Source: Triatoma infestans
Lineage: Eukaryota; Arthropoda; Insecta; Hemiptera; Reduviidae
NCBI GenBank assembly: GCA_011037195.1
Contig: JAAEAF010001993.1
Coordinates: forward strand, 62,001-126,000
DNA length: 64,000 nt
Direction of reading: 5' to 3'
Both the position numbers and the translations under genes were made by a program. Shown here one piece after another: positions 790 to 58,592 of the stretch (within the stretch, counting starts at the first letter, position 1; each line of letters begins with the position of its first letter). The notes beneath the pieces are model-generated. The model searched no databases. It worked only from the letters and a program-made list of their open reading frames with translations, and was not told the DNA's origin.

Positions 790-965
790 GAGTGTAACAG
801 AAACATTGAGTTGAAGTGAACAACTCTCTACACAAACTTGGTGAATTTGCTCTAACGATGGATGAAAATCCGAAACCGGTCAGGAACAATATGAATATAA
901 AATACCGGATATTATGCAGCATTGCGGACCCATCCACATATTCATAAATATATAGAAGTGATGGG
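790..965 (+). repeat. Dispersed repeat carrying a hammerhead-like motif (family 2)
   Basis: This segment is similar along its length to 45850-45985 (+) and to the reverse complement of 44930-45080. All share an upstream arm containing AACAGAAACATTG and CTACAC, then a hammerhead-like core. The copies at 790-965 and 45850-45985 also share a downstream arm containing ATAAAATACC and CAGCATTGCGG. Here the core at 849-886 reads CTAACGA, T, GGAT-GAAA-ATCC as stem II, then GAAA-CCGG-TC. One core base is changed from the CTGANGA consensus (G5 to A), so this copy is probably catalytically poor. Confidence 0.6.
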
Positions 966-1190
966 AAATATATTTTAGTTGGCATTTTAGTATGAAATGA
1001 TTGCATACTAGTTCTGAAGAAGATCTCATTTTAAACAAACGTCGACTTGGAGATCTCAGATACAGTTGTAACATATCAGTTGACTACCAAAATGTTGGAG
1101 ATTAGGAAATTAATCTGCTGTTTCTAAAGTTTCATTAAAAAGAATTTTTTTTAAAATGGTATTCAAATCCGTCAGGCTTAAAATTACAAT

Positions 1191-1597
1191 GATATGTTTG
1201 TATGGCGGCCAATGGCCAGTGGAGTTATTAAAGAAAAAGAATTCTTTGTTGCTCTACGTTTCGGGTACGATTGGTGCACCGTCTTCGGAGCTCGTAAAAA
1301 TTTATTGGAGAAAATACGATATTTTTTACAGTATAGTAGTTATGAAAAAGTGCATAGATTTTGTATTTACTGTCACTTCTGTTTTATACTTTCTTCTGTA
1401 AATATTTTTTTGATTTAAATTTTTCTTTTTTGGTTATAAATCTATGCACTTTTTCATAACTACTGTACTGTATTTTCTCCAAGTAATAAATTTTTACAGA
1501 GCTCCTGAAGAAGGGCACCAATGGTACCCGAAACGTAGAGCAACAAAGAATTCTTTTTCTTTAAAAACTCCTCTGGTCATTGCCATACAAACATCTC
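1191..1597. repeat. Foldback element with paired hammerhead motifs
   Basis: Two arms of about 160-170 bp (1191-1361 and 1438-1597) are near reverse complements around a 75-bp spacer. The left arm starts GATATGTTTGTATGG and the right arm ends CCATACAAACATCTC. Each arm carries a hammerhead-like motif on its outward half: a degenerate one on the minus strand (1251-1293) and a nearly intact one on the plus strand (1501-1541). There is no coding capacity. Inverted terminal repeats containing hammerheads are known from Penelope-like elements; assignment to that class is inference. Confidence 0.7.
1501..1541 (+). ncRNA. Hammerhead-ribozyme-like motif (type I, family ACGT)
   Basis: In order: GCTC (stem I, 5' strand), core CTGAAGA (1505-1511), one extra A, stem II GGG-C-ACC / GGT-A-CCC with an AAT loop, GAAA (1530-1533), CGTA, then GAGC (stem I, 3' strand), a perfect 4-bp match to GCTC. 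The ACGT around GAAACGT is self-complementary, as in dimeric hammerheads with minimal stem III. The expected cleavage triplet is GTA, allowed by the NUH rule but weaker than GUC. The extra nucleotide before stem II recurs in most motifs of this window. Confidence 0.6.
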
Positions 1598-3821
1598 AAA
1601 AGAATTTTTTGTTTGTCCTTCTCCTATTTATTGCAAAAGTTACTGTTGTATTCATCTTAGATTTTCGAAATTGAGTTTTCCCAAAAAGTTTCCTGAGCAA
1701 GAAAGTGTTTTTTTTTGTTTTGTTTAGAAAATGGTCTCTTCCATTCTCTCAAAAACACATTTTCCTGAATAGATTTTTCATTTTTAGCAATTTTCACGAA
1801 CGTCTCTAAATATTCCTTTTAACCTTTAATATTCTTATGACTTTAGGTTTTACCTTTAACGTGTCATTCCAGTACATTCTCTAGTTTTAACCTTCATAAA
1901 AGCTTAAGGTCAATAAAAAATTTCTTTAAAAATTCCAAGTTTGAAGAAAAAGTATAAATTGGAAATTAAGAAACGTCACGCAAAGTTTTAATACCATATA
2001 ACTTAAGTCCTATATTTCGTCGCCAGATTGCAGCATGTACTAGAGCCATGGCTGTCATTTTGCCCAATAAAAATGGAAGTTTGATTTCTCTTATAACCTT
2101 GAATGCCCTAAATACTTCTTGCATAGTGAGTCAGGTTACATTTATTTATTTATTTATTTAAATGTTTGGTGTTTTAGAATGAAAGTGTATCAAAGGAAAG
2201 AGATAAACGGTCATAAAGTATGTCAAGTATGCATCCTAGGTTTTGAATATTTGTTATATTATTGTCTTATTATAAATAATTTAGAAATATTAAAAATTCG
2301 TTTATTTAAACCTTTTTATTTTCTTTATTTAAAAAAAAAATTGACTTTTAAGAGCAAGCAAATCATTTGGTTGTATTTAGGAGTTTTGCAAAATAAACAG
2401 ACAAGGCACCATTTTATTATTATATGTTTAAAACCTTTTTTAGAATTTGTAATAAGTTCGAATTGTGAGGAATCAGAACAAGAATGAGATTGAAGAAAGT
2501 ATAGAAAATAATCCAAAAAATTCCTTCCTCCAGGATGGAAGTCTAACTTAATAAAAAAAACTCAATATAACATTTTTTTTTTCTTATTAATTTGTAATAT
2601 ATAAATGTTTTAGTAGGAATTGTCATAATAAAAATTAAAAAATAATTTTTGTTAAACATTCTTTTTTGTTTAATAATGCCTAATATAGTTGGCCATACTG
2701 GTTAGTAATTTAGAGTAAATTATGGGTGCGGATTGGGAAATTATTTTAAAATGCTATATACACTACAGTCAGTAATTTGCTCCACTTATAGAAATGACCC
2801 GCAACTAATCAATGCCTAACAAGATTTCTTTTTATATACGAAGCTTAGCTTTGCATTTCACTTGTAGCAATTATTATATAATTAAATAACTAAATAAAAT
2901 CAACTTGATGAGATTTTTAACTAATACTCATTTGTATGTAGGGAGTAAAAAATATTTACTTTCCATATATTCTATAAAATAATTTGTATCTGTACTTCGA
3001 GATGAGTTACATGTGGACCGAATTTTTTTTTTTTTAAACAAATTTCAAGGATTTTATAGAAAATTTTCCTTCACGTACATTTTTTTAACTATGATCGTTT
3101 ATTCTTATTTTCAACAGAAATATCTAAACACAAAAGAGAATACAGTATTTTAAGCTAAGCTTCTTATTTTTTATAAAATTCAAAACAATTACCGTTCTTG
3201 GTTTTATTGAAATGGTAATTAGTTTTAAGTCTTTTGTTCTGCACATAGCATTTAATTAAAGAAGAGGAAATTTTCGAAACAAAAAGATTGGATATGCTTA
3301 TTAAAAAAATCTATTGTAGTTCATGGAAATCCCAAGAGTTAAGCAGTAGTTCAGAATTTTTCCGTTGGTGACTTACTTGCCGTGTATAACAAGGGTCGTT
3401 AGAGACTTACTTCGTATATAGAATAGAGGACTTACTTCATATATATATAGAGAAGTCAATTTTCATATATAGGCTTTGTTTTTAAGAAGAAAAATTGTTT
3501 TTCATTGTCGCTTTTTTTTTTGTTAGTGATCGATTATAAAGGATGCTTCAGGGTTAAAAGCCCCATAAAAATATTTTCTAAAATGATTGCAAAGCCTGAC
3601 TGCTTTATTTAAAAATGGCAGATTTTGAAAAATGGAAAAGCTTAAAAGTTACCAAAATGAATTTGCATTTAAGGCATCAAAAGCCACAATTTATCACAGT
3701 AATTTCTTCAACTACTTTTGAGCTGGCGAGGTTCAGATTTGTACTTTCTATTTTAACTTATGAAGAAAAGAATCTCTCCTCTAGTTATTGTGGTTGTGTC
3801 CGCAAGCTGGAAAGAGTCAAA

Positions 3822-4064
3822 GATATTTTCCATGATAGCCTACTTTTCGTGGTCATCGACCGGTTTCGGGTGTTTGCTCATCATCACGATTTTTTTTTTA
3901 AATAGTGTGATAACATAGACTTGCATAGATAGAAGCGCATAAACTAAATTTGCTTTGTGCAAGTCTATGTTTTCACAGTTTTGACAAAACATCCTGAGGA
4001 TGGGCGAACGCCCAAAACTGATCGATGACCGTGGAAAAAAGCAGGCTTTCAGGGAAAATATCTC
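3822..4064. repeat. Foldback element with paired hammerhead motifs (family CCGG)
   Basis: The arms 3822-3928 and 3957-4064 are near reverse complements: AGATATTTTCC on the left answers GGAAAATATCT on the right, and the inner ends share CATAGACTTGCA/GTGCAAGTCTATG. The plus-strand motif at 3990-4030 has CATC, CTGAGGA, T, GGGC-GAAC-GCCC, then AAAA in place of GAAA, and GATG closing stem I. The minus-strand partner (3849-3889) keeps GAAACCGGTC but has a decayed CTGANGA box. Both look inactive. Confidence 0.65.
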
Positions 4065-4824
4065 TAAATCTCTCCTCTACTTTGGTGCCGCATTTCAAAT
4101 GAATCACTAGAGATCAATTGGTATCAGTGGATTTAAAATTTGTCTCTGTAGAACTTTCCAATCAATATCCTTTTTGAAAAAGATAAAACAATTAAAAAAA
4201 ATTGGAAAAAGAGAACGGAAAATCAGAATTTTTCGGGCATTTGAACAGAAACTTTTCGGGATTTGGATATAGAGATTTTATTTCTCTAAGGGGTCAAGCT
4301 TACTTAGAGTAGCAACATCGAAACATATGAAGAATGTAAGGCGGTATTTCCAAATCCATTTCAGGGAAATTTTCTTCTTTTACCCTTTTCTTTCTCCATT
4401 GAACTTTGGACTTTTTATCTTCAGATTTCTTATTTGCTTCTGTAATGTGTGTACTTAATTGCTCATCGCCACTTACAATCTTTCTGCGAGCCGTTAGGAT
4501 ATCAGATTATTTTAAAATAAAAAGCTACCGAAAAACCTAATGATGATTCTCAATATATTCGACCATTTTTTTTTTTTTTTAATAATAAATGAACTGAATA
4601 AAAGAGTATTGAGTTTTTACGTTCACACTAACATATATAAAGATAAACAAAAAGTAAGTTTTAGGCTGATTATCCTATTCTGTGAAACAAATCAATTTCA
4701 TTAATATTATTCATTGATTGAAAGCGATTTATTTAGAAATTATGAATATGTCAAAATTGTCTCAATTTACTTATCTTTTTTGTAGTTAATATTATTCTAA
4801 TATATTTTTTTCTTTTTGTTTCAG

Positions 4825-5940
4825 ATATTTTCTTCTAAATCTGAACTGCAGTTACATTCACAATTACACATGAGAGAAGTAAAGCCTTACAAGTGCAATC
4901 AGTGCAGTAAAACATTCGCCAATAGTTCGTACCTGAGCCAACATACCCGCATCCATCTGGGTATTAAACCTTATCGATGCGAAATATGCCAACGTAAATT
5001 CACACAGCTGTCACACCTACAACAGCACATCAGGACACATACAGGCGATAAACCTTATAAATGTAGGCATCCAGGTTGTAATAAAGCGTTCAGCCAATTA
5101 AGCAATCTACAATCGCATTCCCGTTGTCATCAAACGGATAAACCGTACAAGTGTAATTCATGCTATAAATGTTTTAGTGATGAACCATCTTTACTTGAAC
5201 ATATTCCTAAGCATAAAGAATCGAAACATTTAAAAACTCATATTTGTCAATATTGTGGTAAATCTTATACGCAAGAAACGTATTTAACTAAACATATGCA
5301 AAAGCATGCTGAACGGACGGATAAACGACCGCCAATAATCGGCATACCAAGGGTTGGTTTGGATAATCCACATTATTGGCCGAAAGTATCTCCGGATACG
5401 GCTAATAACTTAGTTGATGTGATGCAACAACATGAGGCTTACAACAATCAAAATGGTCTCACTTCTGAACATCTACATCATAGGACTGATATGAATGGTA
5501 CAACGGATGACCATAGCAGTGTTATGCGTGGAGGTGGTACCTTACAACCTCCAGCACCGCCTCCAACACCTTCAGCCACGGCATCCCCGCTAAATTATCA
5601 TGATACAATAAAAACGAACACATCATCAGCGTTCACACCAATACAATCATTCACACCAACACATCACCATAATCATTTGAATCACCATCAACTACCTGAC
5701 CACCATCGGCCACCATATCTTTCTTACAATGCTATAGCATTTCCTGGTGCTAAAATGAGCCAACTTGGCGGTGTACAAACATCCGTTGGAATGGAAATGC
5801 CAAAAGCTCCGGTTACATCTAATGGTTTTCCAAATCAATTGATCTCATTACATCAAATCAGGAACTATGCCCACCAACCGGCACCTACACTGATGACCAC
5901 AGAGCACTTACTACAAGGTCTTAAAGAAAAAGGACAATAA
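4825..5940 (+). CDS. rn: Rotund/squeeze-type C2H2 zinc-finger transcription factor, last exon
   Basis: Last coding exon (371 codons and stop) of a Kruppel-like DNA-binding factor. It opens at a TTTCAG acceptor inside a zinc finger, so only that finger's two histidines (exon residues 11 and 15) are present. Five whole fingers follow: C24-C27-H40-H44, C52-C55-H68-H72, C80-C85-H98-H102 (spacing C-X4-C), C110-C113-H126-H130 and C141-C144-H157-H161. The linkers and the last finger with its KSYTQETYLTKHMQKH block match the Rotund/Squeeze family (vertebrate ZNF384/ZNF362). The remaining 200 residues are His-, Pro- and Thr-rich with no fold I recognise. In flies rn acts in leg and wing patterning and sqz in neuron identity; which paralogue this is cannot be settled from this exon, so the symbol is tentative. 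Upstream exons lie outside the window. Confidence 0.85.
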   Translation: MFSSKSELQLHSQLHMREVKPYKCNQCSKTFANSSYLSQHTRIHLGIKPYRCEICQRKFTQLSHLQQHIRTHTGDKPYKCRHPGCNKAFSQLSNLQSHSRCHQTDKPYKCNSCYKCFSDEPSLLEHIPKHKESKHLKTHICQYCGKSYTQETYLTKHMQKHAERTDKRPPIIGIPRVGLDNPHYWPKVSPDTANNLVDVMQQHEAYNNQNGLTSEHLHHRTDMNGTTDDHSSVMRGGGTLQPPAPPPTPSATASPLNYHDTIKTNTSSAFTPIQSFTPTHHHNHLNHHQLPDHHRPPYLSYNAIAFPGAKMSQLGGVQTSVGMEMPKAPVTSNGFPNQLISLHQIRNYAHQPAPTLMTTEHLLQGLKEKGQ

Positions 5941-12772: not shown

Positions 12773-13314
12773 TGCCATAATTTCTGCAGTATATTGGTGA
12801 GATCTTCTGCAGTATATTGGTGAGATCTTTTAGATACTTTGTATGCTTAGCATGTACGACATCTCTCTTAAGAAATACATAGAAAAATTATTATTATTTG
12901 TCTGTGGGGAAGGAAACCCTACGCTATCCAAAGCCTCATTGGGCCCATATAGCTACCCCAAGAAAAACAACAACAAACCGGGTCTAGAACAAATATCCAG
13001 ATCCGGATCTAATCCATCTAAGATTCACCGCAGTCCGAATAAATCGGACAATAACCTTAAGCGGAAATAGCCTATGCTCTTCCACAGACATCCTATTCTG
13101 ATCCGGGTCTGGATTTTTGTTCTAGACCCGGTTTGTTGTTGTTTTTCTTGGGGTAGCTATATGGGCCCAATGAGGCTTTGGATAGCGTAGGGTTTCCCTC
13201 CCCACAGACAAATAATAATAATTTTTCTATGTATTTCTCAAGAGAGATGTCGTACATGCTAAGCATACAAAGTATCTAAAAGATCTCACCAATATACTGC
13301 AGAAATTATGGCAG
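12773..13314. repeat. 540-bp foldback element
   Basis: The arms 12773-13010 and 13100-13314 are almost perfect reverse complements, from GCCATAATTTCTGCAG at the left outer end to CTGCAGAAATTATGGC at the right. The inner ends read AACCGGGTCTAGAAC / GTTCTAGACCCGG. The left arm holds a 21-bp direct duplication of CTGCAGTATATTGGTGAGAT (about 12785-12828) that is single in the right arm. Arm identity is high, so the structure is recent or kept alike by conversion. No hammerhead motif is visible. It abuts the 3' end of a LINE on the minus strand. Confidence 0.8.
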
Positions 13315-13331: not shown

Positions 13332-14386
13332 CTAATTTCCTCTTTCCTCACAACCCAAACAATCAGTCATAAGATGGATGGGTGTTTCCTCCTCTGTCTC
13401 ACAGACTCTACAAAATGGATCTGGCATGAGCCCCATTATGTAGAGATGTCTCCTTAAACCACAATGTCCAGTAAGAGATCCAACCAGATGCCTGAGAGCG
13501 CTCCGTGAAAAACACAGCAACGTCTCACTAATGGCCTTGTCCGGACCCCCGATGAGCATTTTGGACTGCCGAAAACCAACTAAGCTCATCCATAAGGATG
13601 AATGCTCTGAAGCTGTCCATGTCTGGAAGCCTGACAGACATGTGCCAGAAGACACGCCAACAGCAGGCTCGGGACCAATGAAAGGAAGAGAGGCGCCTAA
13701 TTTGGCAAACCTATCCACTCCTCATTCCCAAAAATTCCCATGTGACCTGGCACCCAGACTAGAAGCACATCCTTCAGAGAAGAAAGCTCTTCCAGTCTTT
13801 TAGAACATTCTAACACCAACCTGAAGACACATGAACTCAGCGCCTTCAGCGCAGCCTGGCTGTCCGAGCAGATACAAACACCTTTTAAGTTAGTGTTACG
13901 TACCCTCTCATCCAAAACACAACAAAGAATAGCATAAACCTCAGTCTGGAAGACCGTGGTCCATTCACCAAGAGATACTGTCAAATGATCTCCGGTCTCA
14001 AAATAGACCGCAGCTCCAGACCTACCATCCATTCTGGAACCGTCCGTGTAACACCGGAAGTAATTATCAGGTATCACGCCAGACGGACCCAATCTTGACC
14101 AATCTTCCCTAAAGGGTAACCTGACACTGTAAGAATGCTTGAAAACAAAAGTCTTCAACATTCTATCAGAGGGAAAACCTGTAACAGGAACCTTCAAAAG
14201 CATCTCGCGATGAATGGTAGAGTGACCATATTGCTTATCCTGCCAAAAACCTGCCTGTTTAATTCTATAACAGGTTTTCATTGCCATAGTTTTCACCTCT
14301 ACAAAGAGCGGTGGAATTCCTAATAAAGTCTCCATTGCAGCTGTAGGTGTGGTCAGCATCGCACCGGTAACTGCCAAACAAAACAA
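13332..14386 (-). pseudogene. Non-LTR retrotransposon C-terminus: RNase H and Cys finger
   Basis: Minus-strand LINE fragment in two frames (14386-13697, then 13718-13332) with one frameshift near 13710. The first part carries an RNase H domain: YTDGS with the first catalytic Asp, TEVYAI with the Glu, SDSQAAL with the second Asp, then WVPGHMGIFGNE. The second continues with ADRFAKLGA-like sequence and ends in a Cys-rich finger (CRVC, then HLMTDC). RNase H followed by such a finger is the tail of ORF2 in I/R1/LOA-like insect non-LTR elements; the exact clade is not decided. The endonuclease and reverse transcriptase parts are missing, so this is a 5'-truncated, dead copy. Confidence 0.8.
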
Positions 14387-14389
14387 GCC

Positions 14390-17300
14390 AAGCGTTGAAC
14401 ATAGAAAAATTAAGTATTTAACAATATTTCTTCAATTAGTTCAGAACTATTAGCAAATTTATTGTCAAAAAAAGTGTGGAAGGAGGTCCCAAGAAGTGAT
14501 GGAAATCATGAAGAAATATGTGGAAGTTAATTATTTTATTGTGTATGAAACCGCAAAAGAAAGAAAAGTAGAGAGAAGTAAATTCAGGGTACCGAATGCT
14601 TGTTAAAATTATTGACTCTGTCTGTATATAGGTTCTCAAAACTCTTTGCATATATTATTTATATACATGTATGGAACATTTAAAAAACAATTTTTATGAC
14701 AAGAAAGATTAGTTTAAATATATTTTACCATTTTTAATTGTTTCAATGATGCAACATTTTTAGAATAAAATAAGTATAACCAACGACTTTGTCACAGACC
14801 CGAACTTTGGATCTGATTGTAGGAAAGATTAATGCCTTCAGATATAGGTTTACTTCTAAACTTGTAACTTTATGCATCACAAAAAAAAGAACTTGCATTT
14901 TGTTCCTCAATGATTAATATGAACTTTTTTTTAAAAAAAAAGAAAGAAAAGGATTGAATAATTTGTAAATTGCACTCATAGAATTTATTTAATAATATCC
15001 CATTTATTTGAACAATCAATGAATTTAAATCTTTCAGGAACTCTTAAATTTTACCTTACTCTATATACAAAAAAAATTGTTTCGCATCAATTTATTGCCA
15101 AAAAAAATACAATAAAATAAATGGGAATACATAATTTCTAAATTTGATGTAAATATATATATAATATATATAGTTCTTTATTTTTAATGACTAATACATT
15201 TCGAGAGTAAATATCTTTTCATAAATATAATCAATTTTTATTTAAAACTAAAAATACATTTTGTTTTTCATTTAATATATAATATATATAGTTTTTCTGA
15301 ATACTTTTTAAGTAAAAATCCCCAACTACATGGCACCTATATAAAAGCATAACTAAAGCTAAGCCAACAAATATAAACCATATACATAAAAATAAAAAAA
15401 AGAGTTCTTATTAAATATACAATATATAAAACTTGAGCTTATATCATTTTTAAAATAGTCTTGAAATTGAAAGATAAATTACAAATAAAAAAAAAATAAT
15501 CATAATGACAATAAAAGGAAACAAATCGGATCTTTCATATATTTATTTTTCAAAAATTAAGTAGTAATCTTATGAAATTAAATTTGTTCTTGGATTTCCA
15601 TTTAAATAATTTAAAAATATAAATTACGTTCCATTGTTTTTAATATGTATTTAAGCAATAAGTATTTAAGCATATGTAGTTTATGAAATAATAAGAAAAG
15701 CAAAAATTCCATTTATCACAGAATATAAAGTCAGTATTTACGCGTTAATAGTCGTTGCGTAAACTACATCATTTTTAGTAATTTTATTGAATAATATTTT
15801 TCAAAATTGTATGTATTTTTAAGAGTTAAAATTGAATTGCATAATTAATGTATTTAGAATGATCTATAAATACTACACAATTAGTTTAAAGTTTTTTTTT
15901 TTTTTTAAATCGCATTAATTTCAAGTAGTGGGCTAAAGAAGACTTGACTGCCTCCTTAAATGTAAAAATTCAATTTCATATTTTTGGGTAGTTAGAGCCG
16001 CCGGAGCTCGGTAAAAATTATTAGAATAAAGGATTTAAAAAAATTTCAAATCACGAATAATTATTTCATATAAATTAATTGCAATAACCGGATATGAATT
16101 TCAAATAATTTACTAGAAATAATACCCAGCCTGACTGATTACAGCTTATAGCATATAGGACATTTTTTTTTTTACTGTAACTTGACAGTTTAGAGGCACC
16201 ATATCAGGCAGTGACAATATATCATTCATTCTAGCTAGATGCATTTGGTGTAGTTCGGTATCTGAGAGCGTGGGGCTTTTAGCTGAATAAGGACTGGGCA
16301 AGTACTTTGTATGTTTTTAAGGTTTTGAGAGTTTTTTTTAAGGGGAATATTTGTGGTAAATTGATTCTTCCTTATATATTCCTCCTCTTAACATACAATA
16401 AAAATGAAATAACTTAAAACTAGTTCACTTTTAAATAATTGACTATAGCTGAAAAATGAAGAATGAAAAATTTTTTAGCTTTTTTTTTTTTTTTAGTTTC
16501 TCCGCCATTGGCACTTTTTCAATTTCTTTTTCTTATAAACCCTATTTACGAAATTATTTTCTGCAATCCGTAACCCGCCAGATCCTCCTTAACCGTAGAG
16601 GGGCCAAGCTAGTAATCTCTCGACCAGCCGCTTATCTTCCTCCCGATCAGTTTCCACTGAAGAATTTATTGGAACAATCTTTTGGAACCATTCTCTTAAT
16701 ATGGTTAAACCATTAAGTCATCTTTTGCATATAACTTCTATTACTGCTTTTTTTACCCACATAATTTCCTCTTGTTTTAAGTTTTTTTCACAGAACTATC
16801 TAAAAGTCATTTTGGTAGTATTTTTATACATTGATTTTTCAACGTTTCGCATATTTTTAGTAAAAAAGTACTTTTTGCCAATATTTCATTGATTAACTTT
16901 TTGGTGAAATCAAAATCAGAAGCCAGGAGCTCTAAATATTGGATTTAAAGTGAAACTACGGTAGTTCTCGATTTTCAGCAATCCTCTTCTTTTATTATAT
17001 CTTTCTTGGAATATCCGTTTAAACCTAGCACCGATTCCTCCTCCTTCTATTGTCAAGTACTGACTTTTATGAAAATTTATTTAGAGACTCCACTTTTCAT
17101 TTTCTTCTAGCGATATGGTGCACACAGAGTCATTTATATTCTGTGTGACGATAATCGGTTTTAAATTCTGAAGAAATCTTTGTTTTCTTACGAAATTTTT
17201 TATATAAAAATACATCAAAATTAAATTTAAGCGTAATTCTAAAATTGTTGAACTAGCATCATCATCATCAACCATATGATAATTTATCAGTTAATTTCTT

Positions 17301-39700: not shown

Positions 39701-42700
39701 GTTTAAAGAAAATGTTGGAATCATTTTCGAGAAGATCGCAAAAAAATGGAAAAAGAAATCGATTCAGTAAAGTTAACCCCTTCCGGTTGAGGAATTTTGA
39801 CAGATAATTTACTATATAGGATCTCATGAAGATACGACTAAAAGGAATGTTATGTTTGACTTTGTAAGATTTATCGTTTTTCAGCTATGCTGTTCAAAAT
39901 ACACATACACACGGACCCACTTTTTCGGATTTGTATTTCCGATGAAAACTTGAAAATTTGACACGATTACAGTAATTTCTCTTATTTCTAGTAAAGAGAA
40001 AGTAAAAACTTTCTAAATCAGTTTATATATATGAAACTTTTGTTTTTAATATTATTTAATGTGATGATTGAAAATTTGTTATGTAAAACGCAAAAATATT
40101 GCTATGAACTTTCGTTATATATTCGTTATGTTAGATGTTTCTTAAAAATTCATATGTTAAGTTGTTTTTCGATTTCACTCCAAGGTACTATTTTTTTATT
40201 TTATTTGATGTCTTAATTTACATATACCTGTATACTACTATATTATGGCAGATTGGGTGTATTTAATCCCTAAATTTTTGTCATAATATGATAATAAATG
40301 CTGATGTTAACATAAAGTCTGAGCAGGTTTTCTCCAAAACTCTGGAGGCTAGAGCTATATGCCAAAGTTTTTTTTTTTTACTTTCCCTTCTAAGGAGAAC
40401 TGTAATCATCACAAATTTTAGAAGTTGAATTTCCACTAGAGATATATGACTTAAGATTACGAAAAAACAGTTTTTTAGCGAATGGTCTCTTACTTTGTTT
40501 GCGCGCGCGCGCGTGTGTGTGAACAAATGAACTCAAATAACTCAAAACCACATAACTAGGAAATGACGTTTAAGAGTAATTTGGGAAACCGAAATGAAGA
40601 TTTTGGTGAACATCCGTCAGTTTTGTGCGATTTAATTTTGTTTTTTTTTTTTCTTCAGTAAAATTAGTTTTACGTGTGATTTGAGGATGCCAAGAGAGGG
40701 GTTGAAAGGCTTTGACTTTTTTTTTGTATTGTCACTTTAAATGAATAATATATAGCAGTTCTACCGTGTATGTAACACATCAAGGTAACTTGAAATTTTT
40801 AAATTCTAATTTTGAAGAATATTTATTATTAGAAATTGCATAAGAAAAGTCGTATTATTGTTTCAAATCTCTTCTTTTTTTTTTTAATGAAATTTTTTCT
40901 ACATTAAATTGTGAATCGTGCAAATTAGAAAAATTATTTTTTAAATGAAATTGCTATTAATAATAATTTCCAACAATGAATGATTTGTTTTTTGCCAATT
41001 TCTTGAAAATGTTCGCACCAATTTCATGTACAACTTTTATTTGAAAAAAAGTTTCTCTGAGAATTTAGGGTGTTGTGAGAGGAAGGGTTAACTTTTTTTT
41101 TATTCCTTCTTAGAAAGTGCCATTTTAATATGTTATATTTTTTCTACGTTTCAGCATTTTCATTGTTTCAATGAGTTTTTTTTTTTAAAATATGCTATAA
41201 ACACAATTAATAAATATAGTCTCAGTATTTAATATTTTTCTTGGGATCACGATGGTGTTATGGCCCAGTTTACAACAAGAATGCCATTTGAATATAGAGT
41301 ACATCCTAGCCCTTTTTAGTAGTAGTAATGGAAATAAAATTTGCAATAGGTATAAAAGCAAGTTTTTTGCATTAGATGTTGGAGAATGAATTAAGAGAAA
41401 CTCATGTCAGTGTTTCCTAACAGTTTTTTAATTCTAGAAATTTATATTGATTTTTTTTTTCTTTTCATATTGTAAGTAGGTAAACAAATCTAAATTAAAT
41501 TATATTTATCTTTAGAAATACTTATATGTATTCTCTGTTTAAAAAAGATTCTGGCCATTGCCACAATTAGTATGAGTCACAGCCAATATGATTCACTCTC
41601 TAGCACTAGTTGGTGTGTTAGTTAAGGAGGGGAATTGCAGCTGTTCCAAGTTGTCAAAATTTTTTTTTCCTATCTCACTCGTCCCTTTTTTTTTTTCTTT
41701 TGGCATTCATTCAAAATTTTAAAAACCATTGTTAGTCAGATTTTATACTTAATAAGTCAGTTTGAAATTTAATTGCTAGTTAATGTTGGAAAACAAAATT
41801 TACACTATATAATATAAAAAAAAAAAGTTGACAAACATAAAAAACTCATTTCTTAAATTCTATTTGACAACTTTGTACAAATTCAAAATTGTTTACAACT
41901 TACTTAATTGCGCTTAATATAATGTGTCTGGTAGAGGTACGCAGTTCTATCAAATGGTCCGTTAAATGAAAAGAGATTACTAACTAACCCGCCCAAAAAA
42001 AAACCTTCCAAAATTTTTTCTTCGTTAGAATTTTACAAATAAAAAGTCTCGGAACTGTATATATATGCATTAGAAAAATTAAAGAAAATAATTGCAGCTG
42101 TTTTTGAGAAAACCCTGAATTTTTTTGAAAAAAGTGATTCAATAAACGGCAAAAACAGGTTGATTCCGACTTCTAAAAAAATGTTGTTTTTTTTTTAAAT
42201 TGTGCTATTCTAAAATATACTGTTTCATTTTGTGTTCATCTACTGGTTTTCGGGCGTTCGCCCATTTTCAGGATGAAACAGTGTGTAAAGTATAATTGCC
42301 CTGTGGTAGTATGTGATATGATGACATCCTATACACTGAATATGATGACATCCTGAAGATGGACGAACGCCCAAAAAGAAAAATCTTTGTTATTAGTATT
42401 GTAATTGACAAATTGTCTTCATTTTTTGTTTTATATTTTAGTTGAACTTATTCTACATATATACTTATTGCTTCCATCATCTATCAGCAAACTTGTCTAG
42501 GCTTCAGCGTGTGAATTCAATTCATTCATTCCCCCCCCATAAAATCAATTTCTTTTTTGAAAAATGTTTCAAATGAGTCCATTTTCGAGAAAATCCCCCC
42601 CCCCCAATACCTAAACCTGCAAAATTTAGACTACCAGTTAACCGATTTTCTTCAATCAAAGAATTCTAACCAAGCGTAACTTTACACCACTGAAGTGCCA

Positions 42701-45700
42701 CATAAGAATGCTTTAAAAATCAATCCCTGGGAAAAATGTTTTAAATAAAAGTGGGTGATAGATCCTTAGATGGTGTAGATTGTTGTAGGGGATTATCGCA
42801 TTGCGACCTGAAAGATCTATTGTGCTCTCCGAAGCTTTCTCAGTACACTGCCGGCCTCCAAGCAGTGTTCTCTAGCTATAGACAACAGTGCTCATCTCCA
42901 TACAGTGAGCTGTAGAGGCTCCTTGGAAGAGAAAATCTAAGGGCAGCCTGCTGGATTCAAACCCGGGACCTCCAGCGCGCTACCACTGAGTTAATCCCTT
43001 CCTTCTCCCTAGGCTTACGCCAATTAAATAGGGAGGGAGACTATGTACTGTGTTTGTCCTTGTCTGTAAAGTGTAGAGTGTATGTATGTAATTTAAGTGT
43101 ATTGTGTATTGTTCTGACGAAGTGCATGGAGTACTGAGCTGTGGTAAACTGTGGGGTCGCTACTCGCCAAGTAACTGCATGCAACAAATACCTCTTGCGG
43201 GCAACCTCAAAATATGTAATAAAATATATTTAATTTTTTTTTTTTTTTGCGGCTTTTACTAAGCATTTTTGCCGCATCTCAAAGCATTTTTCTTTCCAGA
43301 ACATTCTATCCTTCCAATGCTCCTCTCTTAGCCCTCTCTCCGCCATACTCTCTAAGAAATCCTTTATCCATCTCTTCCTGGCTTGCCCTTGTTTCTTCTC
43401 CGCTCAGCTGGTTCGCACTCTAGCTTTATTTTGAGCCACTAATCTTCTCCCGTTCTCTTGGTATGGTCACACCACGACAGTCTCCCACGATCTATAATAT
43501 AAAGGATTGTTTTCTGTGCACCAATAATTGCTTTTATCATTATTACTAAAGTCGTTGAATCCTAGAGATATTATAACTTTGCCTCCAACTCCATCCATCC
43601 ATCTCCAGGGCTAGTAGTTTCTTTGAAACCCTTTCTACTAAAATCAAAAACTCTGATCCATAACTGATGCATAACTGCATGCATCAGATACCCCTTGCGG
43701 GCTGATAGATCCTTACTTATATAGATAATATTTGAAGTTTAAAGAAAATCTTTAGACCTATTTTCGAGAAAATGCGAAAAACTCAAAAAAAAAAAAATTC
43801 TTTAAAATTGCACTTCCAGTTTGTGGATTTTGACTAAAATCTTCGAATCAGGTAAAATGTTGGTGGCACCCAAACGGAATATGAAGTTTGAGCTTCCAGC
43901 GATCATTCGTTTTTGAGATGTTTTGTTCCTCACCCACATGCAGATCATACGATAAAAACCATTTTATCATACCTCAGAAGCCCTAAAAACATGTATTTCC
44001 AGTGAAAACTCAATTTCTAAAATTTCTTCAGCCATAAGAAAAAGTAAAAAGTATAAATCATTTCAACTTAAAATTTAAACTGAACTTTTATTCACCACCA
44101 AAGTCATTTATTAAAGAGGATTTTGTTCACATTTAATGATTAGGATTATGTCTCTTAATTATTTCCTTCTTATTTTATATAAAAACTCAAGTGCTTTATA
44201 TAAATTCTCAAACCAGTCATTATCTATCTTGATGAATTATTTGAAATTGTGTTAAATGAATTATGCAATAAATACTTCTAGCAGCCAATTTATTGAGAAC
44301 TCTATACATATTTAAGTTCAGTAATCCATCTAATCGAATAGAAATCTTTTGTTTTGTCATTTTCAAGCAAGCGCAGTACATCCAAGAGAAAAAAAACCTG
44401 TGTGAAACACTCTCTTGACTAGCTCTTACTGCTGTTCATAGGAGTTATAATTGACAAATTTTCTCAAACATAATTTTTATTAATTTTTTTTTTTCTAATT
44501 TAAGGCGCGTCAACATCTTTGGTCATTGGCGCCCGGAGCCTTCTCATTTGCACTGCCGGCCTCCGGACAGTGTTCTCACGCTACAGATAACACTGTCCGT
44601 CACCGAACGGTGAGCTGTAGAGGCTCCTAGGAAGAAAAAATCTAAGGGTAGCTCAGCCGGACTCGAACCTAGGGTCCTCCGCGTGGGAGTCCAACACACT
44701 AACCTACTAAATGTTTACTTGCACTCTATTTGATACCAATAGGAAAGTCTGAACTTAATAAAATGACTTGTTTGAGGAAAGCATAACCTTCCACCTCCTT
44801 CTAAACTTCTTTATATGAAATTTCTCGGACAAAAAAATAATTTCAAACAAAAGTGAAAAAAATATCTTTATAAGTACCGAATTAAATATCTGGTACTTTA
44901 ACCGTCGTAGCCTGCATATTCCTTTTATTCCTGACCGGTTTCAGATTTTCATCCATCGTCAGAGCAAATTCACCAAGTTCGTGTAGAAAGTTCACTTCAA
45001 TGCAGTGTTTATCTTACACTAATATTTGTTCAGAAACATTCCACATTAATTGTTGTGGTAGAAACACAATTACCAGTGCAAACAATTTTAGTTTAGGTTT
45101 AGTTTTAAATCTACTAGGTATATATAAATTTACTAGTTTATTTAAATTTACTAGTTTAGGTATATATATATATATAGGGGGAAAAAAGTGCGTATTTGGA
45201 TGATGTATGTGAGTGATGATGTGATATGGTTGTGGGATGCACAATAAAAAACTTAATTATATAAAAAAACCGTAATTAGGTATACATGCTTGCGAGGATG
45301 TGAAGGTTGCGTGAAAAAGTGAAAGAATGACTGGAATTTCTTAATTCTTTGGAACTGGAAAAACTTAATTATATAAAAAAATCGTTCAATTTTAAACGAA
45401 TGAATGAATTTTAAATGTTAGTTTAATCGTTGTTTAATTTTATTTAAATTTATTTTGTGTATTTCTTATATTCTTTATATTTTGGTTAGTTAATTGTAAA
45501 GTAAATCTCCCTCCAACAACAGAGTTTAAAGATTAGAACCCCACGTGTTGTGTCCACTGTAAGAAAAAATTTGCCCTTTAACAACCCAAACACGTGTTTT
45601 CCCACCCATCTGGCCACATCCCTTGACCTAGTTTAAGAGTTTAGTTTTTTAAAAATACGTCTCAGTTAGTGTGAAACTAAGTTAGCTCTGTGCGAGTCTG

Positions 45701-48700
45701 TGTTGTCACACTGTCTAAAAAACGCATCCTGAAGATGGGCGAACGCCCGAAACCGGTCGATGACCACAAAATGAAGCAGGCTACCACGGAAAATGTCTCT
45801 GATTCCACATTAAATTTGTCATTCATATTTAATTCTAATATGAATACATTCACAGTGTAAGTATAACAGAAACATTGCGTTGAACTGAGCTTTCTACACA
45901 AACATAATAAATTTGCTCTGAAGATGGTTGAAAATCCGACGCGGATAAAATACCAGATGTTATCCAGCATTGCGGGACCCCCATAAACATATATCCATTA
46001 AACTTGTTGCAATAGTTTTGTGTAATATGAAGAAAATTTTTGCTTTTGAAATTTGAGTAACCGTGAAAACTCTTGTATATATTAAATCAGATTTTTATTG
46101 TCTTTATTTTTTTTTTTTTGTGTCAATCTTTTTTGTTTTAATATATACAACATAACTCATACCAACTTCTCTCATTTATTTTAAAATGTATTTTATCTTT
46201 TAGAATATGTTTATGACTGTGTGTGTGTGTGTGTGTGTGTGTGCGCTATCTTATATATACATATGTTTTTAGTTTGAATGTATATATACAGAGTGTTATG
46301 TGTTGGAGGATGGGACAAGGGGTTAGTAGAATCTATGTTAAGAAAGTTGACTCATACGGGCAGATTTAGTGTGCTCTCAGCATTAGTTGTAGTAGCACAA
46401 TGTGTGATTTCAAATGGTTCTCAGTTGAAACAAATACTATCTATGTTTATGATAACAGTGAGTGTGTAAATAATTTATCTCAACAACAACAAAAATAATA
46501 AAAATTTAAAAAATTTTATTTCAAAAAAAACAATAGAGAATTTGTTATGAACGGCAATTATTCTCAGGTGTTTCCCTGAGATATGATGGGTATTTTTCTT
46601 TCAATTCATGTTTTTTACAACATGAAATATGTTAACTTAACCATACAGTAAATTCAGAAAATATTCATAAATAAATTGTAATATTTTTATAGAATTATAT
46701 TATGTTTGTAAAAACGTTTATACGAATATGTCGCATGACTAGGAATTTTAAGAAATTTATACAATAAAGATGATCCAATTTTTAAATATTAAATTTTCTA
46801 TATTAATAATTTTTTTTTTGTTTTATTCATTTTTTCAGGTAGTACACATAATAATGAATTAGATAATATTTACTTGATGCTTGAACCAAATTTACAGCCG
46901 ATACCACCTGATCCAAATATTAAACAGTCTGTTGAAATATTTGAAGAGCACAAGCAGGTGAGTAAATCTTACAACTTTTAGAAACATGTAAATAAATTTA
47001 ACGATGGCGAACAAGTTTTTTTTTTTTTTTTTTTTTTTTTTAATTGGTGGTTTTATGTTTGCAGTGAACAATGTTTCCTGCAAAAAATCCCTTTGCCTAT
47101 TTATCAGTTTCAGTTTTTCTAAAATTTCTCTTTAAACTTCGCTAAAAATCAGTTTTTTGCGAAAAATATGCAAATAAAAGTAATTGGAAGCCTTTCAAAA
47201 AAAAAAAAAAAAAAAAAAAAAATGGTAGGAAACAGAAAAAAAAGCGAAGAAGTAGGACGGCGGCTGTTTGTTTTGTTTTGTCGATATATTTTTGCTTATG
47301 TTATTCAAATGGAAATCAGATTCATGTTTATTGTTACAATTCACACATATCGAAGCTGAATTGCAAGCAATTTTTTTTTTTTCTAATAGCAATAAGAGAG
47401 ATTTAAAACAAATCTATTGTGATAGCGCACGACTTCCTTTTTTTGTCATTATGGCATTTCAATAGGCAAATCTTAATCAAACTGAATTTTGTACAAGCAT
47501 TTAATTTTTTTTCTAAGATTTCTATAATAGCAGGACCAATAGTGTATTGATTAATAGGCACTTTAAAATACTATATAGTTATGAACATCCGTCAATAATC
47601 CTTTTAAGATTTCCGTTAAATCACTTGCTTCTAACTAAAATATAAGGCTTCATGCATATAGAAATGTTATGAAGTTTAAAGTCAATCTAAAATTTATTTC
47701 AGTAAATAAAGTTATACCCTTAACAATCTTCTAACATTCTTAATATTCTATAATCCTATAATAATCCTTTAAGATTTCGGTCTTTTTTTCTTCCGATTAA
47801 AACAAAACTTTTTAAGATAGCAAAGCTAAGGTAACAGAAGATCATGTTTGAAATTCTTGTTTCTAATACTTGCGACGAAGCCCAAATTCGAAACTATACA
47901 TTTATGCAAATTTTTGAATTTCTCTCGTAGATGTAAGGGAAAGTATTGTGATCTTGTCAAATTTTCGAAATAACATGTTTTGAGGTCCTCCGAGTCCAAA
48001 AACTTGGTATTTAGAAAATAATCTCTCTGTTTGTGTACATATGTACGTAATATGTATTTATGTATGTGACCTGCACAGCTCAAAAAAAAAAACGAAAAAT
48101 TACAGGAAGTTCAATGTTGATATTCGGTTTAGGTATCACCATGGGATCCGACAGTAAGTTAACTGTCAAAATTCCTCAACCGGAAGTATCACTTTACTGA
48201 CGTTTTTTTCAATTTGGTAAATGACTTTTAACGATATCTTTTAAACATGGTAATTCAATCACACATATTAATATGTGCTGATTAATATTTATTTGAAACT
48301 GCAACTTTTATTTGAAACTTTTTTCTGAGAAAATGCATTTAAAGCTGCTTTTAGGGAAGTTGTGGGGTTGTTTTTGCTTTTAAAGTACTATTTCCGTTTA
48401 TTATACAATGCTATCATTTAAGTAATATTAATATAATTAAATCTGTTGCCAAAATAACGAGTTTGAAGAAAAATCGATTGACCAGAAGTGGGTTTTTACT
48501 GAACAGTATTTTCATTTTTCCGTTTTTTTCTCCATAAAAATACCGTCGGATTTTTTTAAAATTTGAATTTGAATATGTGGACCTATAAGTTTTGTTTAAA
48601 ACTTTGTTCCGAAAAAGTTCATTTAAAGAAGTTTAGGGGAAAGAGGAAAGTTTTGCTTTCCTCAAACAAGTCAATATATGGAGGAGATTGTACTTTATTA

Positions 48701-51700
48701 ATTAATTATTTATTCAATTAATAATTTACTAATTAATTATCATTACATTAATTTTATATATTAATTTGACAATTTTATTTATAATATTTGTTTTTGTATT
48801 TTTCTGATGCAAGAATAATAATTTGTTTAAATGATCCTTTTAAAGTTTTCCATGATTTGTGTCCAATTAACATAATTATGATTGGAGAAGATAAAAATAT
48901 TCTAAAATTCCATGTGTTTTTTTTGTTGTTATATATTTTATGACAATTAATGTTTCAGTTAGCTCAAGAATATTTAAGAGTACAAACAGACATGGCTTTC
49001 CTCTCTACAAAATTAAATAAACTCAGTGAACGATTGACGTTATCTGAAGAAAATGAAGAAGAGGAAATCAGAAAAATGGAAAGTGAAAAGGTAAAATTAC
49101 AGTTTTTACTTCCTCTTACTTCTAGTGTAAGAGGAAGTATTGTAATCTTATCAAATTTTCGATATCTAATTTACATCGGAAATACACGTTTTGAGGTTCC
49201 CAAAAAATTTTGTTTTAGAAACCTCTCTCTGTGTGTGTATGTATGTGTGTAAACAGTAAACAAAAAATCGCAGAAAAGTTCAAACTTGACATTCCGTTTA
49301 ATCACCTTGGGATCCGGAAGTTATCTGTCAAAATTTCTCAGTCTGAAGTGGCACTTTTACTGTGATTTTTTTTTCACTTTTTTGCGACTTTCTTTAAACT
49401 TTTTATATCAATAACACATACTAAGAGCTACTAAGAGACTTTCAAATGTTTATTTGAAACATTTCTCTGGGAAATTCATTTTTAAAGCAACTTTTGGGAG
49501 AGATGTGGGTTTATATTCTTCTGTAAAGTGCTAAATAAGTTTATTGTACCGCTCCTTCATCTAAATAATATTAATTAGAATAAATTTGTTGCCAAAATTC
49601 TTAGTTTAAAAAAATTCTGTTGACCGGAAGTGTGGGTATTTTCTTAATAGTTTTTTTTTTTTAGTTTTTCTGCGATTTCTCCATGTAAACAACAACGGAT
49701 TTCATTAAAATTTGTTTTGTAATAACTATAAATACAGAGGCCTCCCCCACACACTTTTATTAGAGACTTTTCAAGTTCATTTGAGGAGATCTTGGGTTAG
49801 GAGTGAGTTTAAGCTTTCCTCAAAAAAGTGGTGTTATTAAGTTTAGATTCTCCTACTGATATAACATTGAAGACAAATAAACATATAACAAAAAAATTAA
49901 GTTTGAAGAAAATTTGTCAGTTTGAACTCTATAAATTGCAGTAAGAGACAGATGTGTGTGTGTGTGTGTGTGTATATGTGTTTTTTCACAGATTCTTACT
50001 TAAAGTAGGCTGTTTGTACGGATTATAAAATAGAAACTTAATACTTTTCTAATGCTGACCGGAAACACTTAGCTTAAAAGAAAAAACAAAAGATATTCAC
50101 TACATTAAGAACTTTACTCAATTCGACATTGTTGAGTGACCTATTTGGTGGAAAATAAAATTGAGATGACTTGACCTTGACTTATTCTTGCACAACTCTT
50201 TTTCATCCTATTTAATTAAATCATTCAGTACTTTTAAACAAAGAACACTCTTAATTGATGAGTCAGCTGACCGGGAGTAAGTCCTTTATTTTTTATTTTG
50301 TTATTTTTTCTATCAGTGATATAATTTGCTTTATATTGATAAATAAAGAGGCATTCTACTTCTACTACTACTCTTAATTCAGTTTAGAACAAAGTTAATC
50401 GCTCCATAGATCTCTTAAGTTTTTCAAAACAATTTAAAAAAAAAAAAATAGTGTTGTAAATTTGTTAAATTTATTGGAAACTGTTGCACCTACTCCTACT
50501 AAGAGGAAGTATTGTAATCGTGTCAAATTTTCGATATCGAGTTTTCACCGGAAATATCCGTTTTGAAAAGTGGTTTTTAGCAAATGGTCTGTGTATGTGT
50601 GTGAAGAGCATAGCTCAAAAATGAAAAACCGCAGAAAGTTGAAACTTGATATCTCGCCTCAACCGGAATTACCACTTTACAAGATTTTTTTTTTTACTTT
50701 TTTGCATTTTTCTCAAAAATAGTTTCGACGATTTTCTTCAAACTTGGTATATCAACTACACATACAATGTGCTATACAACTTTTATTTGAAACATTTCTC
50801 TGGGAAAATTCATTTAAAGGCACTTTTAGGGCAGGGGTGGGGTTATGTTTTTCTTTAAAGTGCTATCATGGTCGATTATACAATTCTATCATCCAATGAA
50901 AATTAATTAGAAATAAATAGATGGCCAAAATTCCGAGTTTCAAGGAAATTAGTAAACCGGAAATGCACTTTTACTGAAGTTTTCGGCGAATTTCATTAAA
51001 TTTGGTATACTAACTATAAAATTTGTCAATTATAATTCAACTAAATATAATTTGACAATTATAATAAATTGAGAACTGGAATAAGAGAAAGTTGTGTGAG
51101 TGTTTCATACCAGATTTTTTTTGGAAAATAATCACGCTTATCTTGGGAAAATGAAATCTTTAAAGTGGTTCTTGACCGATTTTAAACGATACCTTTGCCT
51201 GAAAACCTTAGTAAAAGTGATTTTCAATTTGGATTTCCTGATCATGCTTCATCTCTATGTTCAAATTTATATCCGTACAATGAGAAATAAAAATAGTGAC
51301 TATAAAAATTTCCTAGCCAACAAGACTTCTAATATGCCCAACACCACACAACTAGTTTCAAAATCCTAAAATGCCTGATAATATTCTTGTATTTAGAGTC
51401 TGAGTTACATCTAATTAGAATAACCTGTCTTATGCAAATTATTCTGTATGAAACCACTTTCTTACAGTAATATTACAGACGATTGTACAGTGGCATAATC
51501 TGGCAAATAAGGATAGGGGTCGGGAACGAAAAAAAATTGGACCCTTATTTCTTCAGTAACAGTCTTTGAAGCCAACAAATTTTTGGGTCCTAATATCTAA
51601 ATAATTAAATTTTAATAAAATAAGCCTTAAAAATTGTACTGCGGTTTCAGATTTTCTAATAATTAGTTTATTAGGAGTAATGATGTATGTATAAATGATT

Positions 51701-53474: not shown

Positions 53475-53650
53475 TTTGGTGCGAGAATTCAGGCTTCGAT
53501 TCTCATGAGCATCTTGAGAAAAAGTGGAGGGGGCAACAGTTAGTCAGAAGAAACTGCGCTGGGAACCACAGCGTGCTTGCCACAAGGCGCCCAATTATAA
53601 TTGCCGTTTAGCAAGCCTTGGCCCTTCATAGGTTGCGTCCTAGGTTTATT
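53475..53650 (+). repeat. tRNA-derived SINE (family B), partial
   Basis: Plus strand from TGGTGCGAGAATTCAGGC and TTCGATTCTCATGAG through AAAAAGTGG, GCGTGCTTGCCACA and AGCCTTGGCCCTTCATAG. It is the same family as 54166-54410 in the opposite orientation and lacks the A-box end. Confidence 0.65.
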
Positions 53651-53781
53651 TCAGTTATTGATAAGAATGAGTTGGCGGAATTTTTGGTATATTTGTCGCA
53701 AAGTAATTCCTCTTGAACTCTTAGGTCCAAAATTATTTTGGCAATCCCAACTTGTCGGCCTAGTAGCTGTTTGGCAGACTA

Positions 53782-53921
53782 CTATCCCTGAGACTAAAAA
53801 TGGCCCTATTTAATGAAAATGTTACTTTTTTTTGTGAGAGGCAGGTAACAACTATCCCTGAGACTAAAAATGGCCCTATTTAATGAAAATGTTACTTTTT
53901 TTTGTGAGAGGCAGGTAACAA
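53782..53921. repeat. Tandem duplication, 70-bp period
   Basis: CTATCCCTGAGACTAAAAAT at 53782 recurs at 53852. The two copies are identical through GTGAGAGGCAGGTAACAA. Confidence 0.95.
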
Positions 53922-54048
53922 CTTTCTCTTATTTCCTCTTTGATTCATCCAATACAATATTGAAGAATAAATATAAATTATTGTATTTTTTCCTTAGATT
54001 ATTGGTTACAGTTGATCATATTCTAAATTTTTTAGAATATTCTTGAAT

Positions 54049-55818: not shown

Positions 55819-55819
55819 A

Positions 55820-57348: not shown

Positions 57349-57560
57349 CTATGGCGCAACACCCATGATGGCTGGGCAAGGCTTACCAGACGGCGATTTT
57401 TATTGGAGGCGGGCGTGTGGTACGCATGCCGCTGTTTCCTTAAGTTTTTTTTAGTTCTGATCTGGGCTTCCCACTTTTTCTCACGTTGCTGGATCAACAT
57501 TTGACTTTGCCCTCATGGAAATCGAAACCTAAATTCTCGCAACAAAGGCGAGTGCGCTAA
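57349..57560 (-). repeat. tRNA-derived SINE (family B)
   Basis: Minus strand: AGCGCACTCGCCTTTGTTGC, GGTTTCGATTTCC (B box) and GTACCACACGCCCGCC, ending in GCGCCATAGATTTT. It directly abuts the foldback at 57563. Confidence 0.7.
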
Positions 57561-57562
57561 AC

Positions 57563-58524
57563 CACAATGCATTAATAATATTGTAAAATGCAGAATAATA
57601 ATAATAAAAAATTAAATAGAAATAATATTGAACTTACATATATAGATAGTCGTGAAGATGTGGAGAAAGAATTTTTAAACATACATATTTGTTACATTGC
57701 AGAAACATAAAAAAAGAAAATTACAAGTTACTTTTTGCTTGTCTTGAATCATCTAGAGAAATGGAAGTGGGTTGGATAGGCAAAGAAGTGAAAGGGATTT
57801 GAGGAAATTGGGGGGTGGGGGGTAGGTGAAAGAAAATTCTTTAAGGTCATGTTGTGAAAGAACCGTTATACATCCCAGACAAATTATTGGTATCATTACG
57901 CGAATTAACAAAAAATTTATTTCTTTTGATAAATATTATTTCTAATATGTTTCTTTTTTTCCTGTTAGTTTCTTTTGCTCGTATCTGGTCGACCTCGTTT
58001 ACCAGATAGACCGACAGCAAAATGACTAAGACAACATTACTGCACTGACGAAACATTTTAAGGAAAAAAAAATCATAAATTTGATTTTTCTAAAACAAAA
58101 ATTCTAGCAAAAGAAACTAACAGGAAAATAGAAACATATTAGAAATAATGTGTATCAAAAGAAATAAATTTTCTGTTAATTTTCGTAATGATACCAATAA
58201 TTTGTCTGGGATGTATAACGGTTCTTTCACAACATGACCTTATAGAATTTTCTTTCACCTACCCCCCACCCCCCAATTTCCTCAAATCCCTTTCACTTCT
58301 TTGCCTATCCAACCCACTTTCATTTCTGTAGATGATTTAAGACAAGAAACAAGTAACTTGTAATTTTCTTTTTTTATGTTTCTGCGATGTAACAAATGTG
58401 GATGTTTTAAAAAATTCTTTCTCCACGTCTTCACGACTATCTATATGTATGTTCAATATTATTTCTATTTAATTTTTTTATTATTACTATTCTGCATTTT
58501 ACAATATTATTAATACATTGTGCT
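57563..58524. repeat. 960-bp foldback element
   Basis: The arms 57563-57979 and 58104-58524 are near-perfect reverse complements around a 125-bp unique centre. Outer ends: CACAATGCATTAATAATATT / AATATTATTAATACATTGTG. A G-rich block GGGGGGTGGGGGGTAG in the left arm is answered by CTACCCCCCACCCCCC in the right. There is no ORF in the arms. A hammerhead-like motif lies 29 bases past the right arm. The left outer side is replaced by a SINE. Confidence 0.85.
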
Positions 58525-58552
58525 TCCTCATTGTATTGTTTTTTTAGATTAA

Positions 58553-58592
58553 AGCCTTGATAAAGACAGGAAACTCTGTCGAAACGTCAGCA
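58553..58592 (+). repeat. Hammerhead-like motif beside the foldback, altered core
   Basis: GCC, TTGATAA, A, GACAG-GAAACT-CTGTC (perfect 5-bp stem II), GAAA, CGTC, AGC. Stem II and GAAACGTC are intact; the CTGANGA box reads TTGATAA, the same kind of change as in the foldback at 37295-37888. Confidence 0.55.

Follow-up and report, generated by a model that had tools for sequence, protein, structure and literature searches.

Minimal type I hammerhead ribozymes of Penelope-like elements (PLEs) are said to have been described by Cervera and De la Pena in 2014 and by Lunse, Weinberg and Breaker in 2017. We have analyzed hammerhead-like motifs in a stretch of 64,000 nucleotides from Triatoma infestans (GenBank assembly GCA_011037195.1, contig JAAEAF010001993.1, positions 62,001 to 126,000), hereafter called the window, whose own numbering is used throughout. 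Type I hammerheads with a near-absent stem III are reported for PLEs in the available passages of PMC7761336, PMC6155905 and PMC7229834. The passages of PMC3846280 used here describe PLE terminal repeats (pLTRs) which are inverted head to head, form palindromic junctions, have a tail of 31 bp on one of the two and come with target-site duplications (TSDs) of 8-10 bp, and which reach into the first 12-22 codons. The corresponding passages of PMC11167929 explain an optional 30-40 bp tail by the spacing of two internal start sites for reverse transcription, and report that each of the two target strands is cut and extended, the start sites being shared between them. In an Anolis PLE, they also put the start codon where stem II begins, and cleavage of that element is partly regained when the 3-8 pair is swapped (PMC11167929).

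We read the motifs in the window as pLTRs of several PLE families, some of them solo fragments and others arranged in compact head-to-head pairs, with no PLE gene found in the ten open reading frames scanned, and put the probability of this reading at about 0.82. The best evidence for this identity is the head-to-head pairing together with the flanking duplications, both absent from an earlier note on this DNA. Four motif pairs are ordered minus strand then plus strand (1251/1501, 3849/3990, 37390/37761 and 42236/42348), and the first three sit in palindromes of 447 bp (F3), 283 bp (F1a) and 636 bp (F4), named after sequence families described below. A comparison of each insert with its reverse complement shows arms of unequal length, the excess on one side being 40 (F3), 34 (F1a) and 40 nt (F4), so that inverted head-to-head pLTRs with a 30-40 bp tail are seen in three of the four pairs. 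The same three are flanked by putative TSDs matching at 13/13 (F3), 13/13 (F1a) and 14/16 bp (F4). The inserts are read as PLE ends because this anatomy fits that in PMC3846280 and PMC11167929. The features are as follows:

1138-1150, unstranded, putative TSD, left copy, of F3 (AAAAGAATTTTTT); 13-bp exact match to 1598-1610, A/T-rich and weaker than that of F1a
1151-1597, unstranded, palindromic insert F3, 447 bp, left arm about 40 nt longer (tail); 86.7% self-complementary over 375 columns
1598-1610, unstranded, putative TSD, right copy, of F3 (AAAAGAATTTTTT), from the flank search
3771-3783, unstranded, putative TSD, left copy, of F1a (AATCTCTCCTCTA); 13-bp exact match to 4067-4079
3784-4066, unstranded, palindromic insert F1a, 283 bp, left arm about 34 nt longer (tail); 77.8% over 239 columns
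4067-4079, unstranded, putative TSD, right copy, of F1a (AATCTCTCCTCTA), from the flank search
37238-37253, unstranded, putative imperfect TSD, left copy, of F4; 14/16 identical
37254-37889, unstranded, palindromic insert F4, 636 bp, left arm about 40 nt longer (tail); 91.9% over 555 columns
37890-37905, unstranded, putative imperfect TSD, right copy, of F4, from the flank search

The duplication search covered twelve places in the window. Random placements reached a score of at least 13 in 12 of 2000 cases and at least 10 in 76 of 2000, and elsewhere in the window 32208 scored 11 and the eroded fourth pair 10 (both in T- or A-rich runs), 45903 scored 9, and the remaining places scored 7 or nothing; we claim no duplication at any of these. 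A stretch rich in C or AC is common to the far ends of families F1 and F2 (TTGCGGACACAACCACAATAAC; TTGCGGACCCATCCACATATTC) and is reminiscent of the AC-rich start site described in the available text of PMC11167929.

Two further palindromic structures occur in the window: a 500-bp palindrome at 12805-13304 (87.5% self-complementary), and a long inverted repeat at 57560-58525 with arms of about 420 bp and 94% identity, the motif at 58553 being located immediately beyond its right arm. Foldback or miniature inverted-repeat (MITE)-type DNA transposons which carry a hammerhead-like string in their terminal inverted repeats by accident might also appear as palindromic inserts flanked by duplications, and that both additional palindromes hold no claimed motif suits such an origin. 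However, these two have no clear duplication comparable to those of the inserts (score 7 each; 6 each in the random-placement test), and three distinct sequence families show the same hammerhead design in the same relative place. The arms of the inserts moreover differ in length by 34-40 nt, the extension being one-sided, and F1 and F2 share a conserved reading frame. We therefore consider DNA transposons an unlikely source.

The earlier note had counted about fifteen hammerheads. All 16 strings it listed are present, on the right strand and at or within a few bases of where they had been placed, but the count is too generous, as the core is damaged in 9/16, and fifteen functional units are rejected for this reason. 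An intact core (CUGANGA, one base, stem II, GAAA and a self-complementary stem III) is found in 4/16 (45724+, 1501+, 23380+ and 44931-), which are the four that had been singled out as best. Stem II is disturbed by an A.C mismatch at its base in 23380 and by an internal C.A mismatch in 1501, and stem I of 44931 has only two contiguous pairs. Three more (37390-, 37761+ and 58553+, the last with a poor stem I) have a core variant with paired U3/A8. Thus, four copies have the CUGANGA ... GAAA core with stems I and II that defines a type I hammerhead, three are added if the paired U3/A8 is accepted, and nine fail. The damage is a single core change in 849 (G5A), 1251 (U4C), 3849 (C3G), 3990 (G12A), 42236 (G8A) and 45903 (A14C), and is larger in 32208 (core deletion), 35586 (A6G and G12A) and 42348 (G12A, no stem III). 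Stem III is self-complementary and only 4-6 nt long. Family F1 comprises 45724+, 3849-, 3990+, 35586-, 42236- and 42348+ (the last 93% identical to F1 over 29 nt), F2 comprises 849+, 32208+, 44931- and 45903+, F3 comprises 1251- and 1501+, and F4 comprises 37390- and 37761+, while F5 is a convenience label for 23380+ and 58553+ which implies no shared origin:

781-941, plus strand, solo F2 terminal-repeat fragment, motif 842-891 (G5A); similar to 44916-45030 (85%) and 45854-45992 (71%)
1243-1298, minus strand, F3 hammerhead-like motif, U4C, degenerate (core inspection)
1495-1549, plus strand, F3 hammerhead-like motif, intact core, ACGU stem III, N17 = A (core inspection)
3848-3897, minus strand, F1 hammerhead-like motif, C3G (core inspection, custom covariance model)
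3984-4033, plus strand, F1 hammerhead-like motif, G12A (core inspection, custom covariance model)
23373-23425, plus strand, F5 hammerhead-like motif, intact core, weak stems I and II (core inspection)
32199-32246, plus strand, F2-like remnant, damaged core, in-frame reading of 25 residues begins here (core inspection, translation)
35584-35633, minus strand, F1 motif, A6G and G12A (core inspection, custom covariance model)
37381-37437, minus strand, F4 motif, paired U3/A8 core (core inspection, strict descriptor)
37755-37807, plus strand, F4 motif, paired U3/A8 core (core inspection, strict descriptor)
42231-42281, minus strand, F1 motif, G8A, left half of the fourth, eroded head-to-head pair (self-comparison, core, covariance model)
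42343-42392, plus strand, F1 remnant, G12A, stem III lost, right half of the fourth, eroded pair (self-comparison, core)
44923-44972, minus strand, F2 motif, intact core, weak stem I (descriptors, core inspection)
45674-45805, plus strand, solo F1 terminal-repeat fragment, best motif 45719-45768; an AUG at 45735 (its A being A9) opens a 24-residue reading
45854-45992, plus strand, solo F2 fragment, motif 45908-45957, A14C (self-comparison, core, covariance model)
58547-58600, plus strand, F5-like motif, paired U3/A8 core, poor stem I (core inspection, additive score)

Short AT-rich elements with a type I hammerhead in an animal genome also resemble metazoan non-LTR retrozymes, i.e., small tandem hammerhead repeats spread via circular RNA. 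The available text of PMC7229834 describes these as tandem repeats of 150-450 bp carrying canonical hammerheads with loop-loop contacts, whereas self-comparison of the window gives inverted pairs and solo fragments and no head-to-tail arrangement. The sole neighbors on the same strand, 45724+ and 45903+, belong to different subfamilies, and 45903 lacks A14. A retrozyme origin is accordingly very improbable.

As the earlier note had proposed, the window was searched with a descriptor permitting an insertion after A9. This strict descriptor, which required CUGANGA or UUGANAA and permitted 0-3 inserted bases, matched four sites (37765+, 37427-, 45729+ and 44962-), compared with a total of 11 matches across 500 shuffled windows, and a descriptor allowing one core mismatch gave three matches (852+, 45729+ and 44962-) and none in 200 dinucleotide shuffles. 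A looser additive score with a cut-off of at least 18 gave 8 observed matches against 0.97 expected, with shuffles reaching 21.25, and did not discriminate, as several unrelated sites in the window score as high as the claimed motifs. A custom covariance model built from six F1/F2 copies recovered two held-out claimed copies (42231-42278-, E 1e-5, and 45908-45950+, E 0.002), while 1501 (E 0.28), 32208 (E 0.66) and 42348 (E 1.3) fell in the range of unclaimed sites.

The earlier note had also taken the covariation in stem II as a sign of RNA selection. Between F1 and F2, 5/8 stem pairs are altered on both sides (six copies), and 89.6% of the cells in the alignment pair, compared with 22.9-41.7% when the partners are slid. 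Two of five covariation measures did not exceed the shuffles: the double-change pairs were matched by 57/500 and the further pair types by 498/500. The covariation is thus real between two related families, but its double changes are in effect one evolutionary split, and the copies look like decaying transposon pieces and not selected host RNAs. As judged from the alignment, this supports an RNA or RNA-plus-coding constraint in the ancestor rather than in the present copies.

These results bear on whether the motifs are chance matches multiplied by ordinary repeat copying, with no ribozyme ancestry. The background in the loose score, the nine copies without an intact core and the lack of a hammerhead in Rfam (see below) all fit such an origin. 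However, the strict descriptors exceed the shuffles, F1 and F2 carry compensatory changes, and the design recurs in unrelated families. Pattern matches also seldom fold in other collections. Scans of viral contigs gave 46, 0 and 19 loci, of which 2/46 are foldable by our reading of the table (L001 and L029), and a scan of prokaryotic genome contigs gave at least 120 loci; 1/139 was foldable among the viral (19) and genome matches listed, and there was no convincing relative among the matches listed. The F4 element had no match among plasmids. We hold chance to be a most improbable origin, and on the counter-evidence given above, retrozymes, foldback DNA transposons and chance are each rejected as the main explanation. 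The observation of the earlier note is confirmed in part and its interpretation supported in part, the motifs being hammerhead-like and of the type I kind with a near-absent stem III that is reported for PLEs.

The extra base before stem II was called consistent and unusual in the earlier note. The first part holds, since exactly one base is inserted after A9 in 4/4 sites of the strict descriptor, while the second is weakened. In F1 and F2 the extra base is U followed by G10.1, and A9-U-G10.1 reads AUG in 7/9 F1/F2 copies translated; the exceptions are 35586, which has AGG, and 32208, which has a damaged core and an in-frame AUG nearby. The reading frames that follow agree in 45724 (24 residues), 44931 (24) and 32208 (25). 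Because the base is the U of an AUG in F1 and F2, and the start codon of the Anolis PLE coincides with the start of stem II, the insertion is less odd than first thought. Here the ribozyme, stem II and the first codons would share the same letters, which suggests why families bearing an open reading frame (ORF) could keep the extra base. The AUG accounts for the extra base in F1 and F2 and not in F3 or F5.

Several observations weigh against a PLE origin. The extra base is A instead of U in F3 and in 23380/58553 (F5), leaving these without an AUG, so that a pLTR entering the ORF start at the hammerhead is found in F1/F2 only and not in F3 or F5; in F4 the AUG is also there, yet the frame differs between its two arms. 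The putative TSDs are longer than the 8-10 bp given in the available text of PMC3846280, and one is A/T-rich and one imperfect. The fourth, eroded pair has no convincing duplication, scoring 10 in a T-rich stretch inside the arm and 7 in the random-placement test, and for that test the right edge of F1a was shifted from 4075 to 4068 after its TSD was known, the score being 13 both ways. No GIY-YIG endonuclease domain was found in the ten ORFs scanned, shorter ORFs lying outside the scan, and the fragments at 19143-19952 (RVT_1 at 19143-19421 and 19632-19949) are generic reverse transcriptase. The predicted monomer folds of 23380 and 44931 differ from a hammerhead fold. Finally, the Rfam search of the window returned nothing at gathering and 11 matches at E<=10, none of them a hammerhead. 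The curated Rfam models may be built for hammerheads with a stem III and without an inserted base. Since no GIY-YIG gene was found among the ten ORFs, the inserts are filed as PLE-derived ends and not as complete PLEs.

UUGANAA is present in both F4 arms and in 58553. An association between positions 3 and 8 is seen (Fisher p 0.011 over 14/16 copies, leaving out 3849 with G3 and 32208 with its deletion; 0.038 by locus with F4 counted once), although this is a post hoc result from two loci. Its presence in both F4 arms suggests that U3-A8 was probably already in the parent element. The variant may still be active, as cleavage of the Anolis PLE partly recovers when its 3-8 pair is swapped. A search of open-licence literature with exact terms for U3-A8, C3U and G8A together with hammerhead found no paper, which is not proof of absence.

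A mechanism by which such inserts might arise can be proposed from their anatomy. In a live element, the hammerhead would span the ORF start, and cutting of the PLE RNA would require either that two motifs pair through the self-complementary halves of stem III or that the PLE protein helps, as the Anolis case suggests. The protein would cut both target strands 13-16 nt apart, and reverse transcription would be primed on each side inside the RNA, on one at the nearer start site and on the other 34-40 nt further. The two start sites would give one tailed and one tail-less arm, and joining of the two cDNAs at their 5' ends followed by fill-in would create the TSD. We thus tentatively propose two linked claims, which together we consider possible but doubtful: that palindromes of 283-636 bp are products of two-ended target-primed reverse transcription, always with one tailed and one tail-less arm, and that the U3-A8 core is natural and maybe active. 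The available text of PMC3846280 favors self-priming on an antisense template as the source of the inversion, and our data do not choose between the two routes. Compact inserts with one tail fit both cut strands priming reverse transcription, which is seen in vitro and left open for real insertions in the available text of PMC11167929. If two-ended priming is correct, a genome census of palindromic inserts would be a record of PLE integration.

After insertion, the motif is probably inert. In the predicted fold, 314/447 (F3), 198/283 (F1a) and 510/636 (F4) bases pair with the opposite arm, the core included, so the motif would be locked into a long hairpin, and most copies are mutated. Run-through transcripts are therefore unlikely to cleave, as the core is predicted to pair with the other arm in all three inserts. 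The inserts have the appearance of non-autonomous PLE ends in which decay followed insertion.

The window has 69% A+T and contains other features, including pieces of animal genes. A C2H2 zinc-finger ORF was found at 4801-5940 by the ORF domain scan, and exons resembling the kinase TAK1/MAP3K7 lie at 28019-30311, the exon at 28019-28288 having TAK1/MAP3K7 as its best solved relative (E 1.2e-32). Broken reverse-transcriptase frames (RVT_1) span 19143-20531, and an RNase H frame at 13332-14431 and a weak zf-RVT frame at 63618-63962 are likewise retroelement-like. Pieces of a dispersed repeat family, about 100-680 bp long and 66-93% alike, occur in either orientation at 33953-34935, 35835-36024, 39480-40008, 43706-44025, 48054-51120 and 61686-62396. 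There is also an ankyrin-repeat frame on the minus strand at 58774-59310, and 62573-63471 holds tandem-like copies of a 143-nt unit, with three 41-nt repeats at 62931-63059.

The kinship with PLEs that the earlier note had suggested from the minimal stem III agrees with our results, as the motifs fit hammerheads published for PLE terminal repeats. Like these, the window motifs combine the core, a stem II hairpin and a near-absent self-complementary stem III implying dimers, and are dispersed in an animal genome; unlike them, most copies are degenerate. Since minimal hammerheads in PLE terminal repeats are already established, the window mainly adds members, and the extra interest is limited to the palindromic inserts and the U3-A8 core. 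The Anolis element Poseidon PAc, as described in the available text of PMC11167929, shares with the window the start codon at the start of stem II and ends 30-40 bp apart that define the optional tail. Both target strands are cut and extended in vitro in the PAc case. No PAc-like protein was found in the ten ORFs scanned in the window. The PAc start sites lie 111-118 bp into the ORF, compared with ORF-proximal ends 67 and 98 nt after A9 in F1a, and PAc loci are tandem, in contrast to the head-to-head pairs seen here. In Adineta vaga (PMC3846280, available text), Penelope copies usually enclose an ORF or captured DNA, whereas each insert in the window is a pLTR pair alone, and the Adineta vaga TSDs measure 8-10 bp as opposed to 13-16 bp for the putative ones here. 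In their overall anatomy, Adineta vaga Penelope and the window agree, with inverted head-to-head pLTRs, palindromic junctions, a one-sided tail, TSDs (putative in the window), and captured or solo pLTRs in both (PMC3846280).

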